DNA of 64,000 bases from Irpex lacteus (lineage: Eukaryota; Basidiomycota; Agaricomycetes; Polyporales; Irpicaceae). Each line of letters begins with the position of its first letter. Position 1 is the stretch's first letter. Shown one piece after another: positions 29,614 through 37,981 of this stretch. A program made the position numbers and the translations under genes. Where the stretch lies: the NCBI GenBank assembly GCA_001986395.2, contig MQVO02000007.1:1488001-1552000 (forward strand). Reading direction: 5' to 3'. Under the pieces are notes generated by a model. The model was not told where the DNA came from, ran no database searches, and worked only from the letters and a program-made list of their open reading frames with translations.

Positions 29614-30870
29614 ATGGATCATGAACGTACCGTCGAAGACTTTCTAGCAGAGATAGAATCGGAAAACCTCCAACGAGTAGGTAGCCATGCCCATTTCTAT
29701 TTGAATATTATCTCATTAGTGCAGTTTTTAAGCAATGTCCGACTCGGCCCTCATGAAGGTCAGTTGCTTTCATGGTCAGTTATGGCACACCTCTGACGGC
29801 TCTCATTAGATGGCTCAGTACTTAGAAGCAGCTGCATACCTTCGCTCGATTCCTGCCTGAACTATGGTGACCCATTAGGACGTAGTGCTCTGCAACCTGG
29901 AGACGTGGTTGAAATACAAGGAGCCCCTGCATCGGGGAAAACTCACTTTGTCTATCAGCTTTTAGTATCATGCATCCTTCCTTCGTCCTCGACTCTCGGT
30001 GGATGGGGTAAAGCTGCGGTCGTATACGACACAGACGGGACATTTCAAGTTGGTAGACTGAAGACTCTTCTTCACGCCCACATATCTGGTAAACACAACG
30101 CGGCGGGTGATGCAATAAATCACTCACGTATCGAGGACACTACACTCGACTGCTTGCATCGTCTTCATGTTTTCCGCCCGACGACTTCGATGCAGCTAGC
30201 TGCCACTATCGTCAATCTAGGCAACCTCCACGCAACGCATCCTCGTTTTGCAGACCAAGAAATTGGATTGGTTGTCGTCGACTCTCTAAGCGCATTCTAC
30301 TGGCAAGACCGATTCACAGTCGAACAATTTCGTGCAGGGCCGTCTGGTCACAATGCTAAGAACCCGCTTTTGCACGTCCTTGCCGCTCTTGACGCCATTC
30401 GCGTCTCTCATCGGCCTATCATCCTGGTCACAAACTGGGGTCTCAATCCGACAGACAAGCCATCCTCGGATACCGGGACCTTGAACTCTCCATTCTTCAA
30501 ACAGCACCTAAACGTACTCCCGAGGCCATCTCCATCCAGCAATAATCCAAGCTCTAGAATAACCTCTGACGACCGCAATGCCGTTCATCAGCAGGGCCAA
30601 GCATCGTCAGGCCCTCGTGAAAATGTGGATACAAGCCAAAATCCCGCTAGCCTTCCGATTACATATCACATAACATTACGACTTGTCTCCGCTTCTACAG
30701 TCTCGGCACCCACCGCAAGCGTAGCGCCAGATAGAGAGCTTCAGGACATTCGTGCGCATGGCAATAATGGTACTCATGCCGATACCAGGAGTACCAGTGT
30801 TGAAGGGTTTGTGAGGTCCTCAAGAAATGGTCATGCTATACGGACTTTTACGTTCCAAATAGGGCTCTGA
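29614..30870 (+). CDS. XRCC2: XRCC2-like RecA/RAD51 paralogue
   Basis: This is a probable homologous-recombination mediator of the RAD51-paralogue group. Exon 1 (29614-29680) gives MDHERTVEDFLAEIESENLQ and exon 2 (29810-30870) the rest, about 375 residues. Walker A is VVEIQGAPASGKTHFVYQLL, followed by SCILPSSSTLGGWGKAAVVY and DTDGTFQVGRLKTLL. Walker B is IGLVVVDSLSAFYWQDRFTV. Human XRCC2 has the closely similar GTGKTEMLYHLTARCILP, FIDTDYHFDMLRL and ILDSLSAFYWIDR, which is why I prefer XRCC2 over other paralogues. The middle of the C-terminal half is a Ser/Pro-rich insertion (about residues 225-300) that looks disordered, and the end RTFTFQIGL matches the family's short C-terminal beta strand. 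The Walker A lysine is present. Confidence 0.82.
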
Positions 30871-31131
30871 CAATAGATATATCGATGAATATGTAAATAC
30901 AAACAGTGTTAGTGACATTTTGTGTATTTTTATTTTAGCCGCAGTATGTATCAGTATAGTGTCCTATCGAGGATCCGGAGGGTGGTTAGGAGGTCGACCG
31001 TGACTGAGCAATATGTCACACAAAATGAGTGTGACCTGCGGGATTGCGGGATGGGCGTTTGACGGCGCATGCGCGCTACTATAGCTAAACGCACGACTTC
31101 CTCTACTGCTTCATACCACAACATTCCCGCC

Positions 31132-32187
31132 ATGTCCGACATTTCTGCACCACCTCTTGCTGCACCACCGCTAGCTGCAGAAGCCGTTCAAAATGGCGTC
31201 AACCCTGTTGTGGCACCAGCTCCGATAGTTCCTCTCATTCCTGGCCAGCAACCCGCCGCACCTGAACAGCAAGAGCATGCTACAGAAACATTGTACATTC
31301 AGAACCTGAACGAAAAAATCAAGATTCCAGTGCTGAAGGCTAGCTTGAGAGGTCTGTTTAAGGCATATGGGGAGGTGCTGGATGTAGTGGCGCATAGCAA
31401 TTTGAGGATGAGAGGGCAGGCGTTCGTGTCATTTGAGTCGGCGGACGTCGCAAAGAAGGCATTGAAGGAGGTCAGAGGATTCCCTCTGTATTCAAAACCT
31501 ATGGTATGTCTATTACCTCTATACCTATGTCCTTCATATTTGATATTCTAACGGCGGAACCAGCAAATATCATTCGCAAGAACTCCCTCAGACGCTGTGG
31601 TAAAGAAGCTAAACCCCTCCAGCTACGATGACCACAAAGCAAGAAGAGACGAGCACAAGAGTATGTTATCCGACTTCTTTGGCTAGATATTAATCTGACA
31701 TGCTGACTGCTCATAGAAGCAACACGGTACACCAACCCTCTGAAGGCTAAATTCCGACAGAAACGCCTGGCAGCCGAGAGTATGCTCCTCCTTTCTGCTC
31801 ACTCAACTGGGATGCTAATTCTTGTCATCAGTGGACGGCGGAAGTGCTCTGCCAACAGCGAAAAGACCGAATGTGCAGATGCCAGACGAATATCTTCCAC
31901 CGAACAAGATCCTCTTCCTGCAGAACCTGCCAGACAGTGTCACGAAAGACCAGCTTATGGCATTGTTCTCGCAATACCCCAATCTACACGAAGTGCGTCT
32001 TATTCCGACGAAGAAGGATATTGCCTTCGTGGAATACTTGGACGAAGGCAGCGCCACTGTGGCAAAGGACGCGCTTCACAACTACAAGTTGGACGGAGAG
32101 AACAAGATCAAGGTCAGTGTCAAACTCGCAGTGTTCGTTTCTCGTCGGGCTGACCTCGTGCCACAGATTACATTCGCAAGGAAATGA
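31132..32187 (+). CDS. U1A/U2B''-type snRNP protein with two RRMs
   Basis: This is a probable spliceosomal protein that binds U1 and/or U2 snRNA loops. The ATG at 31132 opens MSDISAPPLAAPPLAAEAVQ. RRM1 has ETLYIQNLNEKIKIPVLKAS (RNP2 YIQNLN) and LRMRGQAFVSFESADVAKKA (RNP1 RGQAFVSF), then KPM joins over an intron to QISFARTPSDAVVKK. A basic linker ATRYTNPLKAKFRQKRLAAE follows. RRM2 has NKILFLQNLPDSVTKDQLMA, LHEVRLIPTKKDIAFVEYLD and ends KIKITFARK at 32187. The RNP motifs and the two-RRM layout with a central linker match U1A and U2B''. A single fungal or fly-type SNF protein often covers both roles. There are about five exons. Confidence 0.9.
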
Positions 32188-33158: not shown

Positions 33159-33779
33159 ATCTGGTCCTCTTCAAGTTTCAAACTTTGTAAGTACTCATAG
33201 TGCGGCTACTACTGCAGTATGTCGTCCCCGAGCACAAGAAGCCGTGTCATTGTATGATAGCGTTGATTATTTCTTTATTCTTCAATATATTCGTTTGAAG
33301 GTTAATATTGCGTGAAACTAGATATTTGGCACAGCGTAGGATTCTCATGCATGAAGAGGCTTGGATATTAATGAACAAGGGTGCGCGGATCAAATCCGAG
33401 TCCCGACGTCGGGGCGGGTTGAACCATGCCTTGGCGACTGCGACAACCTGAAGTCTGACCGTCATGACCAAATCTTACTACTACTTAGCCTCTTTCAATT
33501 ACTGCTCACAGCACGGCAGTTTATACAAGCTCATGTAAACAGCCTATCAAGCAACCTCATCGCCGACCTGTGGCTCAGAAGGCAGTGTATTACTCAAACT
33601 CACTCCGGAACCGCTCCTACTAGGTAGCATTCCATGCCACATCTCGGTGATTGACAACCTGAGATATGGAGGAATGACTCATCCATCTCGCAGTATGTAT
33701 ATAATCTGCTTGAATGCATTCGTCGCTGTACAAACCTACGATACCCAGATCCTCCCGCTACAGCAGACAGCAGTCAGCT
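33159..33779. other. Intergenic region upstream of the RNA-repair gene
   Basis: This 621-base gap holds no supported gene. The frame of the next gene is open upstream to an ATG at 33714, which would add 22 residues. Confidence 0.4.
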
Positions 33780-36413
33780 ATGGCCTCAATGCAGCTCTTT
33801 CGCGGTACCATCGCCCTAGTAGGCCCAACCATCGAAGATATAGTGAAGGGCACAAATATTCCTAACCTCTACTCGCTCATACAAACAACTATCCCCTACC
33901 ATGTCACTCTTGTCACGAAGAATGAGCTACGCACCCTTCCCTCCGGTATCTCTCCCGAACAAACTCTCCATCGCCTGCAAGAAGGTCTGGGGCAAGAACC
34001 TCCTACGTTACATTCCGCGGGTCTGGGAGGGCACCCTCGCGGAAGGCCGGAAGTGCTCTTTGTCGTCGTCATATGGGCCAAAGGGCAGCAACTTCGAAAG
34101 ATACTTGGCCTCCCACCAAAATACTTCCACATCACATTATCTCAACAGGACGCACACGACATCGACAAAGGGGTTAATTCACTTCTAGAGGAGCTACCAT
34201 TCACATCACCACCAGATCTTCTCGACCATCTCGTATATACCCTCTTTATCATGGGCGACTACGCACGCGCGAAGGAGTTCTCGGTGCAACTATGTCGGAG
34301 GACACCTACATCAGAGAAAGGATTCTTACGACTTGGCGATGCAGCTGTCAAGCTTTCCCAGTACAAACTGGCATTGCTATCATATGCGTCTGCCTACCAG
34401 TGTTCAGCAGAGGATGATGCCAAGACGCAGACCTACGCCCTTCGGAAACTCGTGGCATGCGCGAAGGGGACAGAATGGGGGACTGTCTGCGCAGAATGGG
34501 AATTGGGGCAAATCCCTGACGAGATTTCTTCAATCTTGTTACGCCCATGGTCGTCTGATCTGCGCGCGAGGGTCACTCAGGCCAGCACAGAGATACCAAC
34601 GCTCTGCATAATGCCTCGGGACCATCTCCTCATTCCTTCCCCGACAGCACGCACCATACAAGACCCCTACTACACACTTCCACGATTCTTTAGGTGGCTC
34701 GTACCTTTTCGCATCGCACTTATGTCTACTCCACGCAGTGCTCTTGACATTGCGGCGCTGGGCTCTGCTCATCTTGGAATCCGCCATGTCTTAACATTAA
34801 CCGAAGAGACACCTTTGCCGAAGGAGTGGTTTCAGGCGACGAATGTGAAGAATATCTTCTGTCCAATCCCCAATTTTCATCCTCCAACGATCGAACAAAT
34901 GGATCTCATAATGAAGCTACTGTGTCAAGAAGGCAACACTCCTATCCTCATTCATTGTGGCGGCGGCAAAGGTCGCGCGGGCACGGTCGCGGCCTGCTAC
35001 CTCGCCGCTTTCGGTTTCTCTCCTCCTCCATCCGACCCTACCATCCTCACTCAGCCCACAATGTCCGCGCCAGAAGCTATTGCAGCATTAAGGAACATCC
35101 GACCTGGGAGTATTGAGACGGAACAACAGGAAGCGTTTGTTAGCAAGTGGTGCAGCACAATATGGAAGCGGCAGTCTATCTTTCCTGATCCTGTACCCGA
35201 ACCTCTTCCCTGTTCGCTTGATATTGATGGAACTCTCGAGCCCGCAAGTAACCTCTTCATTTTCGTGGGTCTACCGGGATCTGGCAAGTCATGGGTTTCT
35301 AGAGCATTGCTTGCCCGTGATCCAGATAGCTGGACATGGATCAGTCAGGACGAGGCAGGTAATCGGAGCGCATGCGAGTCTGCCATAGGTCGCCCAAGGC
35401 AGAAAGGCAAAGTCATCCTCGACCGCTGCAACACTTCCCGAGACGACCGTAAGGCATGGCTCGCACTGGCAGCACACTGGGCCGTCTCGCCTATATGTGT
35501 CTGGTTCGATTACTCCCCTGAGCTGTGCGTGTCACGAGCGCAGAACCGCTTTGGTCATCCTACTCTGCCTCCTGGTGGAAGGGTTCGGAACGCGGTCAAG
35601 CAGATGCAAGAGCTCCTGGTGGCCCCAACACACCAGGAAGGATTTTCTGCGATTGTGACAATCCGCTCTTTCGCTGCTGCTGAGGAGTTCGTGCGGCGTG
35701 TCTCAAATCCTGTTGGTCTGTTCAAATTTCCTCGCACAGCGCACCTTATCAACCTCGGCGCGGCTACAGACGACGACTTGGTCGTGAGTGGCTTACAGGT
35801 TGACGGAGCCTCGTCAAACGCACATGTCGTCATAACGGAGAAGGTAGACGGAGCAAACATGGGGTTTTCTCTATCTGCCGATAGGACGCAAGTGATTGTA
35901 CAGAACAGATCACACTATGTCAACCCCACATCGCACGCACAGTTCAAGAAGCTCGAACAGTGGGTCGACGTACATCGAGGAGATTTGTACAAGATACTGG
36001 ACAGGGATCCGTACTTTGCGCAGCGTTATGTGCTATTCGGCGAATGGCTCACAACGGTACACTCCGTAACCTACACCAAACTTCCGGACTGGTTCCTAGC
36101 CTTCGATCTGTATGATAGGACAACGCGTAGCTGGGTTGATCGGAAGACCCTTGCTGCTCTACTGGCTGAGACGCAGATTCGGCAGACACCACTTCTTTAC
36201 GAAGGACCTATGCCTTCTGAAGAAGAGCTGAAGGCCATGGTGCAGCGGCAATCGCAATTCACTGAGGGACGGTTGGAGGGGGTGTACGTGAAGGTGGAGC
36301 GTGAGGGTAGAGTTGTCGGCAGGGGTAAAGTTGTAAGAAGTGACTTCATTGCTGGTAACGAGCACTGGACGAAAGGCATTCTGCGGTCGAACCAACTTGA
36401 AAATATATCATAG
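33780..36413 (+). CDS. Multidomain RNA end-healing and sealing protein: 2H phosphoesterase-like, TPR-like, phosphatase, kinase, RNA ligase
   Basis: This single exon encodes 877 residues, and I infer an RNA break-repair enzyme. Residues 1-140 contain two HxTL motifs, YHVTLVTK (His41) and YFHITLSQ (His117), the paired signature of 2H phosphoesterases such as cyclic phosphodiesterases. Residues 145-245 are helical with TPR-like repeats (YTLFIMGDYARAKEFSVQL, FLRLGDAAVKLSQYKLALLS). Residues 295-460 form a dual-specificity-phosphatase domain with ILIHCGGGKGRAGTV (Cys393, Arg399). The usual general-acid Asp position seems to be Asn365 in CPIPNFHPPT. Residues 490-640 are a P-loop kinase domain with FIFVGLPGSGKSWVSRAL (497-504) and VILDRCNTSRDDRKAW. 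Residues 650-877 are an Rnl2-like ligase with ITEKVDGANMGFSLS (Lys688, motif I), VLFGEWLTTVHSV and WFLAFDLYDR (motif III region), LEGVYVKVE (motif IV) and GRGKVVRSDF (motif V). The start at 33780 was chosen because the 2H fold begins there. Confidence 0.85.
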   Translation: MASMQLFRGTIALVGPTIEDIVKGTNIPNLYSLIQTTIPYHVTLVTKNELRTLPSGISPEQTLHRLQEGLGQEPPTLHSAGLGGHPRGRPEVLFVVVIWAKGQQLRKILGLPPKYFHITLSQQDAHDIDKGVNSLLEELPFTSPPDLLDHLVYTLFIMGDYARAKEFSVQLCRRTPTSEKGFLRLGDAAVKLSQYKLALLSYASAYQCSAEDDAKTQTYALRKLVACAKGTEWGTVCAEWELGQIPDEISSILLRPWSSDLRARVTQASTEIPTLCIMPRDHLLIPSPTARTIQDPYYTLPRFFRWLVPFRIALMSTPRSALDIAALGSAHLGIRHVLTLTEETPLPKEWFQATNVKNIFCPIPNFHPPTIEQMDLIMKLLCQEGNTPILIHCGGGKGRAGTVAACYLAAFGFSPPPSDPTILTQPTMSAPEAIAALRNIRPGSIETEQQEAFVSKWCSTIWKRQSIFPDPVPEPLPCSLDIDGTLEPASNLFIFVGLPGSGKSWVSRALLARDPDSWTWISQDEAGNRSACESAIGRPRQKGKVILDRCNTSRDDRKAWLALAAHWAVSPICVWFDYSPELCVSRAQNRFGHPTLPPGGRVRNAVKQMQELLVAPTHQEGFSAIVTIRSFAAAEEFVRRVSNPVGLFKFPRTAHLINLGAATDDDLVVSGLQVDGASSNAHVVITEKVDGANMGFSLSADRTQVIVQNRSHYVNPTSHAQFKKLEQWVDVHRGDLYKILDRDPYFAQRYVLFGEWLTTVHSVTYTKLPDWFLAFDLYDRTTRSWVDRKTLAALLAETQIRQTPLLYEGPMPSEEELKAMVQRQSQFTEGRLEGVYVKVEREGRVVGRGKVVRSDFIAGNEHWTKGILRSNQLENIS

Positions 36414-36663: not shown

Positions 36664-37981
36664 ATGTCCTATTCCATCTTTGCTCTGGGCAACCCCTTGC
36701 TCGATATTCAGGTCTACAACGGCGAGGAGCTGTTGAAGAAGTATGACCTGAAAGCTAACGATGCCATCCTCGCAGAGGAGAAGCACACCCCTCTGTGAGC
36801 ACAGATCATCATCGAAATTCTTTGCTTTTTCTGACAGTGGACTACAGCTATGAAGAGCTCGTGAAGAACTACAAACCCACATACGTTGCGGGCGGCGCTG
36901 CTCAGAACGCTGCTCGTGGAGCTGCCGTGAGTACTTGCCCAGCTTCTCATTATCGAAGTCAAAATCTGATACATGGGAAACGACTTCCCTCTATAGTACG
37001 TTCTCCCACCGAAGTCCGTCGTGTATGCCGGCAGTGTCGGAAACGACGACCTTGCTGAACAGCTCAAGGCGGCCAACAAGCGTGAGGGTCTAGACGAGGT
37101 TTACTATGTCAAGGAAGGCGAGCAGACTGGTGCCTGTGGTGTGATCATCACCGGCCACAATCGGTGCGTTCCGCGTCTTAGCATTTTAGAGTATTGGTCC
37201 TGACTGCCGTAATAGCTCCCTGGTGACCACTCTCCGCGCCGCAGAGAAGTTCGACAAGTCCCACCTCTCTTCGCCCCAGGTTGCGCCTCTGATCGACGCT
37301 GCCAAGCTATTCTACGTTGAGGGCTACTTCCTCACACATGGTAGCGAGTCTGCTCTTGAGCTTAGCAAGAAGGCTTCAGAAAGCAGCAAGGTTTGTCGAC
37401 CGTCTGTGCTTTCCCAAGAGCGTGTATTCATGAGAATTCGTCCATGCCCAGATCTTCGTCCTGAACCTTTCGGCACCATTCATCCCCCAGTTCTTCGGTG
37501 TCCAACTGCAGCAGATCCTTCCTTACACCGATATTGTTATTTGCAACGAGACTGAGGCCGAATCATGGGCAAGCGCGACCGGTGTCGCTGACAAGGATCT
37601 TGTTAGCATCGCCAAGGCTCTCGCTACGCAGCCCAAGACGAACGCTGCCCGTCCCCGTATCGTCGTTATCACTCACGGCGCCGAGAGCACTATCGTTGTT
37701 TCCGCCAATGATCTCGAGAACCCCAAGACCTTCGCCGTTCATGCTCTCTCTGACTCCGAGATTGTTGACACCAACGGCGCTGGTGATGCCTTTGCTGGTG
37801 GTTTCATTGGTGCCTACGTGAGCGGCAAGTCTCTTGACGAGTCCGTTGAGGCAGGTCACAAGATGGGTGCGATGAACGTACAGCTTGTGAGTATTCTCTG
37901 AAATTTTGTGGTTGACTTTTGACTTATCATGTCCATTAGGTCGGCCCTCAATATAAATGGCCTAAGGTCAACATTTTGTAA
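36664..37981 (+). CDS. ADO1: Adenosine kinase (PfkB family)
   Basis: This enzyme phosphorylates adenosine to AMP and keeps the methyl cycle running by removing adenosine from S-adenosylhomocysteine breakdown. The ATG at 36664 opens MSYSIFALGNPLLDIQVYNG. Later exons read YEELVKNYKPTYVAGGAAQN, AARGAA (substrate-binding GG), VVYAGSVGNDDLAEQLKAAN and GACGVIITGHNRSLVTTLRA. Then come FYVEGYFLTHGSESALELSK, ILPYTDIVICNETEAESWA and PRIVVITHGAESTIVV. The catalytic block is IVDTNGAGDAFAGGFIGAYV, with the Asp base in GAGDAF. The last short exon gives VGPQYKWPKVNIL and the TAA at 37979-37981. About seven exons make a protein near the usual 345 residues. All PfkB signatures are present. Confidence 0.95.

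Follow-up and report, generated by a model that had tools for sequence, protein, structure and literature searches.

A predicted single-chain RNA repair protein of the Swiss Army Knife family in Irpex lacteus

According to excerpts of PMC3400036, the tRNA-splicing ligase Trl1 converts a cyclic phosphate to a 2'-phosphate and adds phosphate to the 5' end before it seals the break, after which the 2'-phosphate remains for Tpt1. In bacteria, the Pnkp1-Rnl-Hen1 system unites all the repair activities in one assembly and, in the parts of PMC4411300 consulted, is tied to damage by ribotoxins. Phage T4 combines Pnkp, which provides a kinase and a 3'-end phosphatase, with the ligases Rnl2 and Rnl1, which join 5'-phosphate to 3'-OH ends. 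Herein, we analyzed a gene at positions 33780-36413 (forward strand) in a 64,000-nucleotide stretch of Irpex lacteus DNA, referred to as the window (contig MQVO02000007.1, positions 1,488,001 to 1,552,000). The product is a genuine and well-conserved member of a protein family already known as Swiss Army Knife (SAK). We propose, with a probability of roughly 70%, that it is a single-chain RNA heal-and-seal enzyme working beside Trl1 and Tpt1.

Like Trl1, the window protein is a single chain with a 2H-type phosphodiesterase, a P-loop kinase and a lysine-adenylylating ligase (excerpts of PMC3400036), whereas the domain order is ligase-kinase-cyclic phosphodiesterase (CPD) in Trl1 and 2H-phosphatase-kinase-ligase in the SAK protein. 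The bacterial system differs in consisting of three proteins, with another phosphatase and an extra methyltransferase (parts of PMC4411300). With the T4 enzymes it shares the logic of kinase, 3'-end phosphatase and 5'-phosphate/3'-OH ligase, the SAK ligase being Rnl2-like and the kinase PNK-like; however, all domains lie on one chain, a cysteine phosphatase and a 2H domain replace the HAD phosphatase, and there is no Rnl2 C-terminal domain. No architectural difference was found from the SAK families of Pfam: the matches to 2H-SAK (PF22547) and PTP-SAK (PF22784) each cover almost all of the profile, and the chain also carries the kinase and the ligase. An earlier note, made from the DNA letters alone, had called the architecture distinct. 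This holds in comparison with Trl1, but a novel architecture was rejected because Swiss Army Knife names for these domains already exist in Pfam and in two UniRef rows. The families were reportedly described by Burroughs and Aravind in 2016. Excerpts of PMC9503650, PMC7824862 and PMC7765460 use "Swiss-army-knife" for phage HAD phosphatases, which are proteins other than the SAK repair family.

Gene and domain architecture

The gene is intronless, and its frame is intact with no internal stop codon. The open reading frame (ORF) spans 33714..36413 on the forward strand (899 codons, stop TAG at 36411-36413), and ATG 33780 is its codon 23, giving a product of residues 23-899. Residues are numbered by the 899-residue ORF throughout; numbers in the earlier note are lower by 22, so that its His41 and His117 are H63 and H139. 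ATG 33780 seems a better start than ATG 33714. By eye, a TATA-like stretch lies immediately 5' of ATG 33714, and the first residue falls at query positions 23-25 in 30 of 121 aligned proteins, the window protein included; in 87 of the 121 the first letter aligned to residue 1, so the start-site count is not decisive alone. The features of the gene, all on the forward strand, are as follows.

33780-36413, +, SAK-type RNA repair protein gene, residues 23-899, 877 residues, intronless
33807-34157, +, 2H phosphoesterase (2H-SAK), residues 32-148, PF22547, E 2e-18
33900-33911 and 34128-34139, +, HxT motifs of the 2H domain, HVTL (H63) and HITL (H139)
34212-34583, +, TPR-like helical region, residues 167-290, helices in the model and a profile match to TPR designs
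34680-35141, +, cysteine phosphatase of dual-specificity phosphatase (DSP) type (PTP-SAK), residues 323-476, PF22784, E 1.4e-55
34953-34985, 34872-34874 and 34977-34979, +, phosphatase sites: P-loop HCGGGKGRAGT, Asn387 and Ala422, respectively
35253-35705, +, polynucleotide 5'-kinase, residues 514-664, PF13671, E 1.5e-14, Walker A GLPGSGKS at 35268-35291
35712-36410, +, Rnl2-like RNA ligase nucleotidyltransferase, residues 667-899, without C-terminal domain, PF09414, E 1e-33
35841-35852, 36276-36293 and 36324-36338, +, ligase motifs I (KVDG), IV (EGVYVK) and V (GKVVR), respectively

Judged by these sequence scores, the domain matches are beyond chance. The 2H-SAK model scored 67.3 bits and the PTP-SAK model 187.9 bits, each against a cut-off of 27, and the latter was present in all 50 members of set A1; PF13671 and PF09414 both exceeded their cut-offs, placing a kinase and an RNA ligase on one chain. 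The AlphaFold2 model of the protein had a mean predicted local distance difference test (pLDDT) value of 91.5 and a predicted template modeling (pTM) score of 0.83, with clear fold matches to DUSP23 for the phosphatase, PNK for the kinase, and T4 Rnl2 and NgrRnl for the ligase. Ten residues (C415, R421, K525, D546, R608, R612, K710, E777, E855 and K872) were invariant in all 121 aligned proteins. Every motif that the earlier note had quoted (the HxTL pair, HCGGGKGRAGT, GLPGSGKS, EKVDGAN, LEGVYVKVE and GRGKVVR) was found in the translation, and the domains it had named, their order and the Rnl2-like nature of the ligase were backed by Pfam, profile comparison and predicted structure.

For the 2H domain, the Pfam model, the motifs and the strand order agreed with the earlier claim, while a structural match to it was missing. 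Of the 121 proteins, 112 have H63 and 116 have H139; among ungapped rows of a wider alignment the counts are 154/171 and 168/180, respectively. By eye, this region of the model falls into two lobes of beta-beta-alpha-beta order, each with an HxT motif on its final strand. No 2H chains were among the 50 structural-match rows listed for the full model, rows that were filled by other domains. The TPR-like region appeared in the model as a run of helices at residues 167-290; TPR_14 matched weakly in the single sequence (E 0.044), and the family profile matched designed TPRs with a whole-sequence E of 5.6e-9, with no single stretch passing alone. The kinase has a P-loop, an Asp base and a lid Arg in a PNK fold, and its profile matched the single sequence of T4 Pnkp (hhalign probability 87%, E 3.6e-6).

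The ligase carries motifs I, III, IIIa, IV and V, with K710, E777, D798, E855 and K872 conserved; K860 is mostly kept (K in 201 and R in 51 of 253 ungapped rows). Motifs I, III and IIIa aligned with T4 Rnl2, and hhalign against the single T4 Rnl2 sequence gave a probability of 7% and an E of 0.0052, single-sequence partners in general scoring low probabilities. In structural ranking of the ligase model, T4 Rnl2 and Naegleria Rnl stood above Rnl1, DNA ligases and Trl1, indicating an Rnl2 nucleotidyltransferase fold; a Trl1-like or DNA-ligase-like enzyme was rejected on its lower Z. Capping enzymes were not among the 50 structural-match rows listed for this model, which excludes nothing; PF01331, sought as a capping-enzyme control, gave 0 matches in the Irpex genome. 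The NCBIfam Rnl2 equivalog cut-offs were not reached (TIGR02307, 18.1 bits vs 197; TIGR02306, 16.8 vs 151), and the ligase profile gave two spurious matches only (E 0.35 and 0.58) among PDB sequences. The Trl1 ligase family PF09511 was not among the 14 Pfam families listed at E<=10, a listing from which the filters of HMMER remove most matches weaker than about 0.1. Beyond the ligase, the window protein leaves no space for another domain.

Distribution and coexistence with Trl1

At least 556 proteins matched at E<=0.001 (7999 candidates scored). By our reading of the table, all four domain models were found in 119 of the 120 relatives listed. The named ones among these are Agaricomycetes, and Coprinopsis cinerea has an ortholog (P0084). 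The architecture is widespread in Agaricomycetes, and searches with halves of the protein added Tremellomycetes, Ustilaginomycotina, Ascomycota, chytrids, oomycetes, the alga Trebouxia and bdelloid rotifers (lineages checked for Irpex, Gaertneriomyces and Adineta). In a domain scan of 331 collected proteins, the full four-domain set was seen in 143, phosphatase-kinase-ligase in 96, kinase-ligase in 40 and 2H-phosphatase in 24, and 28 fell into other classes; fragments and search length limits inflate the partial classes. Of two Phytophthora chains (P0312 and P0179), that of P. infestans begins within the phosphatase and that of P. ramorum is 2H-phosphatase; these oomycete chains may come from gene models in which a full SAK protein was split or truncated.

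The bdelloid relatives (P0193, P0201 and P0206) have phosphatase-kinase-ligase, with 56-57% identity over the kinase-ligase part. In a tree of 33 hand-picked rows, the window protein grouped with Irpex (100/99), and the bdelloids formed one clade (100/100) within a group otherwise made up of Agaricomycetes and Kwoniella (87/90, below the level that the tool stars). The tree suggests that the bdelloid SAK-type gene was likely acquired by horizontal transfer. Separately, two Kwoniella proteins (Tremellomycetes; P0157 and P0161) lay within Agaricomycete rows and Cutaneotrichosporon elsewhere, a possible transfer within fungi.

In the same Irpex genome, matches to the ligase, kinase and CPD domains of Trl1 clustered at C135:207843-210299, and a Tpt1 match lay at C185:963428-964153; some of the match pieces run across stop codons, which the presence of introns would lead one to expect. 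The co-occurrence with Trl1 raised in the earlier note was thus seen with all three Trl1 domains. RtcB was not found in this genome by a search that detected 9 of 14 controls. HAD_SAK_1 likewise gave 0 matches there, in a search in which none of the controls was detected. The SAK gene was the sole PF09414 match in the genome, and a second copy was not found. Since the Trl1 domains and Tpt1 are present, tRNA splicing is probably served already and the SAK protein would be additional; its replacement of Trl1 was rejected on the same ground.

One neighbor lies about 250 bp downstream, outside the repair machine.

36664-37978, +, adenosine kinase (PfkB) gene with introns

An adenosine kinase is fused to the repair protein in 5 of the 120 homolog gene models listed. 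Of two upstream frames on the forward strand, 29797-30867 holds a Rad51-type stretch scoring 28.5 bits and 31063-31548 an RRM domain scoring 35.6 bits.

Prokaryotic ligase relatives and the HEC-03 cassette

Matches were found in at least 94 of 398 and at least 81 of 396 bacterial genomes, numbers that are lower bounds because no more than two candidates per genome were scored. They covered pieces of the chain only, the longest 245 of 852 model positions. A viral scan with the full alignment gave 25 pattern matches, none of which was confirmed. At 15 of the 95 loci examined, the ligase adjoined relatives of PADLOC HEC-03A and HEC-03B: the ten best loci of the 398-genome search (L058-L067), two of three plasmid loci (L053:2227-4687 and L054:2062-4690) and the three best viral-contig loci (L071-L073). 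The third plasmid, L153, has the same gene order by annotation. Within flanks of 1.5 to 4 kb, HEC-03 relatives were not found beside the ligase at 77 of 80 viral loci or at L055, L068 and L069.

The cassette consists of an AriA-like ATPase (HEC-03B), a small HEC-03A protein and, as the third gene, a minimal Rnl2-like ligase. HEC-03B also matched the AriA models of PADLOC. For HEC-03A, no Pfam family matched, and the PDB gave one match, a designed barrel with no stretch passing alone; by our reading of its motifs, the sequence resembles a PIN nuclease. No PADLOC model matched the two cassette ligases tested. Like the SAK ligase, the HEC-03-linked ligase is without a C-terminal domain, but it is a stand-alone protein of about 230 residues without healing domains, beside the AriA-like ATPase and the small protein.

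A ligase tree was built from 80 rows: 64 locus rows with a ligase of at least 130 residues (65 loci were given; of the 80 viral loci, L071-L118 only), 15 hand-chosen SAK rows and T4 Rnl2. SAK formed one clade (100/100), and its neighbor group held all 16 HEC-03-labeled rows plus L076, with L153 labeled from annotation and not from comparison. Support was moderate and below the level starred by the tool, both for SAK with the HEC-03 group (88/76) and for the HEC-03 group itself (92/76). As far as the sequences tell, the prokaryotic proteins found to be nearest to the SAK ligase are stand-alone ligases encoded next to candidate anti-phage genes, and the SAK ligase is likely tied to this defense cassette. 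A bacterial frame of 744 residues (L160:1018-3249; the phylum is that of an Actinomycetes metagenome-assembled genome) has the ligase followed by the kinase, the order opposite to SAK.

We tentatively extend this link to a scenario that we regard as rather unlikely as a whole. SAK would be a eukaryotic enzyme of RNA-damage immunity whose ligase was taken from the bacterial three-gene anti-phage cassette. There, a PIN-type HEC-03A would leave 5'-phosphate and 3'-OH ends that a bare ligase could reseal; eukaryotes would have added the 2H domain, the Asp-less phosphatase and the kinase to mend 2',3'-cyclic-phosphate/5'-OH breaks as well, and the core would later have reached bdelloid rotifers.

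Proposed mechanism and its alternatives

From the domains we infer the activities, the sequence in which they act, their substrate and the role of the protein in the cell as follows. The 2H domain would open the 2',3'-cyclic phosphate, the DSP-type domain would remove the remaining terminal phosphate via Cys415 and Arg421, and the kinase would phosphorylate the 5'-OH. The Rnl2-like ligase would then self-adenylylate at Lys710 and join the 3'-OH to the 5'-phosphate, and the TPR-like region probably keeps domains or substrate together. With a phosphatase and a ligase type joining plain 3'-OH to 5'-phosphate, the expected product is an ordinary linkage. Most likely, the protein works in addition to Trl1 and Tpt1 and repairs RNA cut by ribonucleases, toxins included. 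According to parts of PMC4411300, most ribotoxins leave 2',3'-cyclic-phosphate and 5'-OH ends, and this chemistry fits the SAK domain set. Excerpts of PMC11258130 report that RNA ligases gained by horizontal transfer are, as a class, strongly induced in bdelloids under attack by a fungus, and propose ribotoxin repair. Among the papers listed in searches of the open-licence PMC literature, we found no experimental one on a SAK-type protein. The earlier note had equated domain order with reaction order; the order itself is as claimed, but its meaning may be coincidence because the RNA end on which the phosphatase acts is not the one that the kinase phosphorylates. Its statement that the chain holds every activity needed did not stand, given a phosphatase without the canonical general acid and a ligase without the T4 Rnl2 C-terminal domain.

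Several observations count against the proposed repair enzyme or its role. The 2H region had no relatives at E<=10 among PDB sequences, and the N-terminal profile did not match the CPD of the genome's own Trl1 (E 0.28). The bdelloid chain (P0201) begins at the first phosphatase profile position and is without 2H. The T4 Rnl2 C-terminal domain was not found: the alignment to 2hvq (317 residues) stops at chain residue 234 for the ligase model and 266 for the full model. In T4 Rnl2 this domain is needed to seal unactivated 5'-phosphate ends, and truncated Rnl2 works best on pre-adenylylated ends. Sealing by the SAK ligase may therefore depend on other domains, such as the kinase or the TPR part. 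As to the role, no PADLOC defense model matched the window protein, and the toxin link is by association. The top BLAST matches of the bdelloid RNA ligases highlighted in excerpts of PMC11258130 are bacterial or phage and not fungal, so a SAK-type gene may not be among the induced ligases; those excerpts mention no such gene by name. Excerpts of PMC10809525 report two radiation-induced RNA ligases acquired by horizontal gene transfer in bdelloids, which fits general RNA damage too.

The phosphatase raises a further objection. Both the CX5R P-loop and the DSP fold are present; however, the general-acid position, Asp in DUSP23, is occupied by Asn in 250 of the 259 ungapped rows (Asp in 7, Lys in 1, Thr in 1; 35 rows gapped), and this replacement should weaken ordinary phosphomonoester hydrolysis. 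At the residue after the P-loop Arg, Ser or Thr elsewhere, 262 of 267 ungapped rows have Ala; Asn and Ala co-occur in 239 of the 251 proteins showing both sites. Solved relatives (five alignments) keep Asp at the acid site and Thr or Ser after the P-loop Arg. Among 44 prokaryotic relatives, loci from a GTDB scan with phosphatase patterns only, 30 have Asp at the acid site, 7 have PLADN with Asp one before the aligned Asn, 1 has Asn and is cut off there, and 6 do not reach it. The domain might then not be a standard 2'/3'-phosphatase: it might act on another group, such as 5'-terminal anhydride phosphates, which perhaps need no general acid, be very slow, or mainly bind RNA phosphate ends. We consider this unlikely, though not negligible. 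Among ungapped rows, Cys is kept in 269/269, Arg in 266/269 and Gln472 in 272/273, so Cys chemistry is probably retained, the P-loop Lys being less strict (243/269). Asp in seven SAK rows indicates that Asn is dispensable, and the nine best prokaryotic relatives pair Asp with Ala, which by itself is thus no sign of loss. Ala looks common to close prokaryotic relatives in these alignments, and Asn special to SAK.

In another alternative, the SAK protein would be an additional ligase for tRNA splicing or the unfolded protein response, serving Trl1 as a housekeeping partner or spare. Its task would be that of tRNA splicing overall, on cleaved ends of the same kind, and the single copy found, widely kept in Agaricomycetes, would suit this view. 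With all three Trl1 domains and Tpt1 already in the genome, a bdelloid chain lacking 2H, and mixed tree lineages, with bdelloids and Kwoniella among Agaricomycete rows, that look unlike a housekeeping gene, we judge it improbable. A DNA repair enzyme, suggested by the database name "ATP dependent DNA ligase", is very improbable.

What the analysis adds to the known SAK architecture is the Asn/Ala signature of the phosphatase, the ranking of the ligase by structure, the presence of Trl1 domains and Tpt1 in the same genome, and the HEC-03 link. The conserved Asp-to-Asn change makes the action of a cysteine phosphatase on RNA ends a concrete question, while the link to HEC-03 offers a testable bacterial counterpart and a possible origin in conflict. 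If the heal-and-seal activity is confirmed, the SAK enzyme may serve as a one-pot tool to join RNAs with mixed ends, and mushrooms would own a self-contained RNA repair enzyme besides their tRNA-splicing ligase, a candidate ribotoxin resistance factor.

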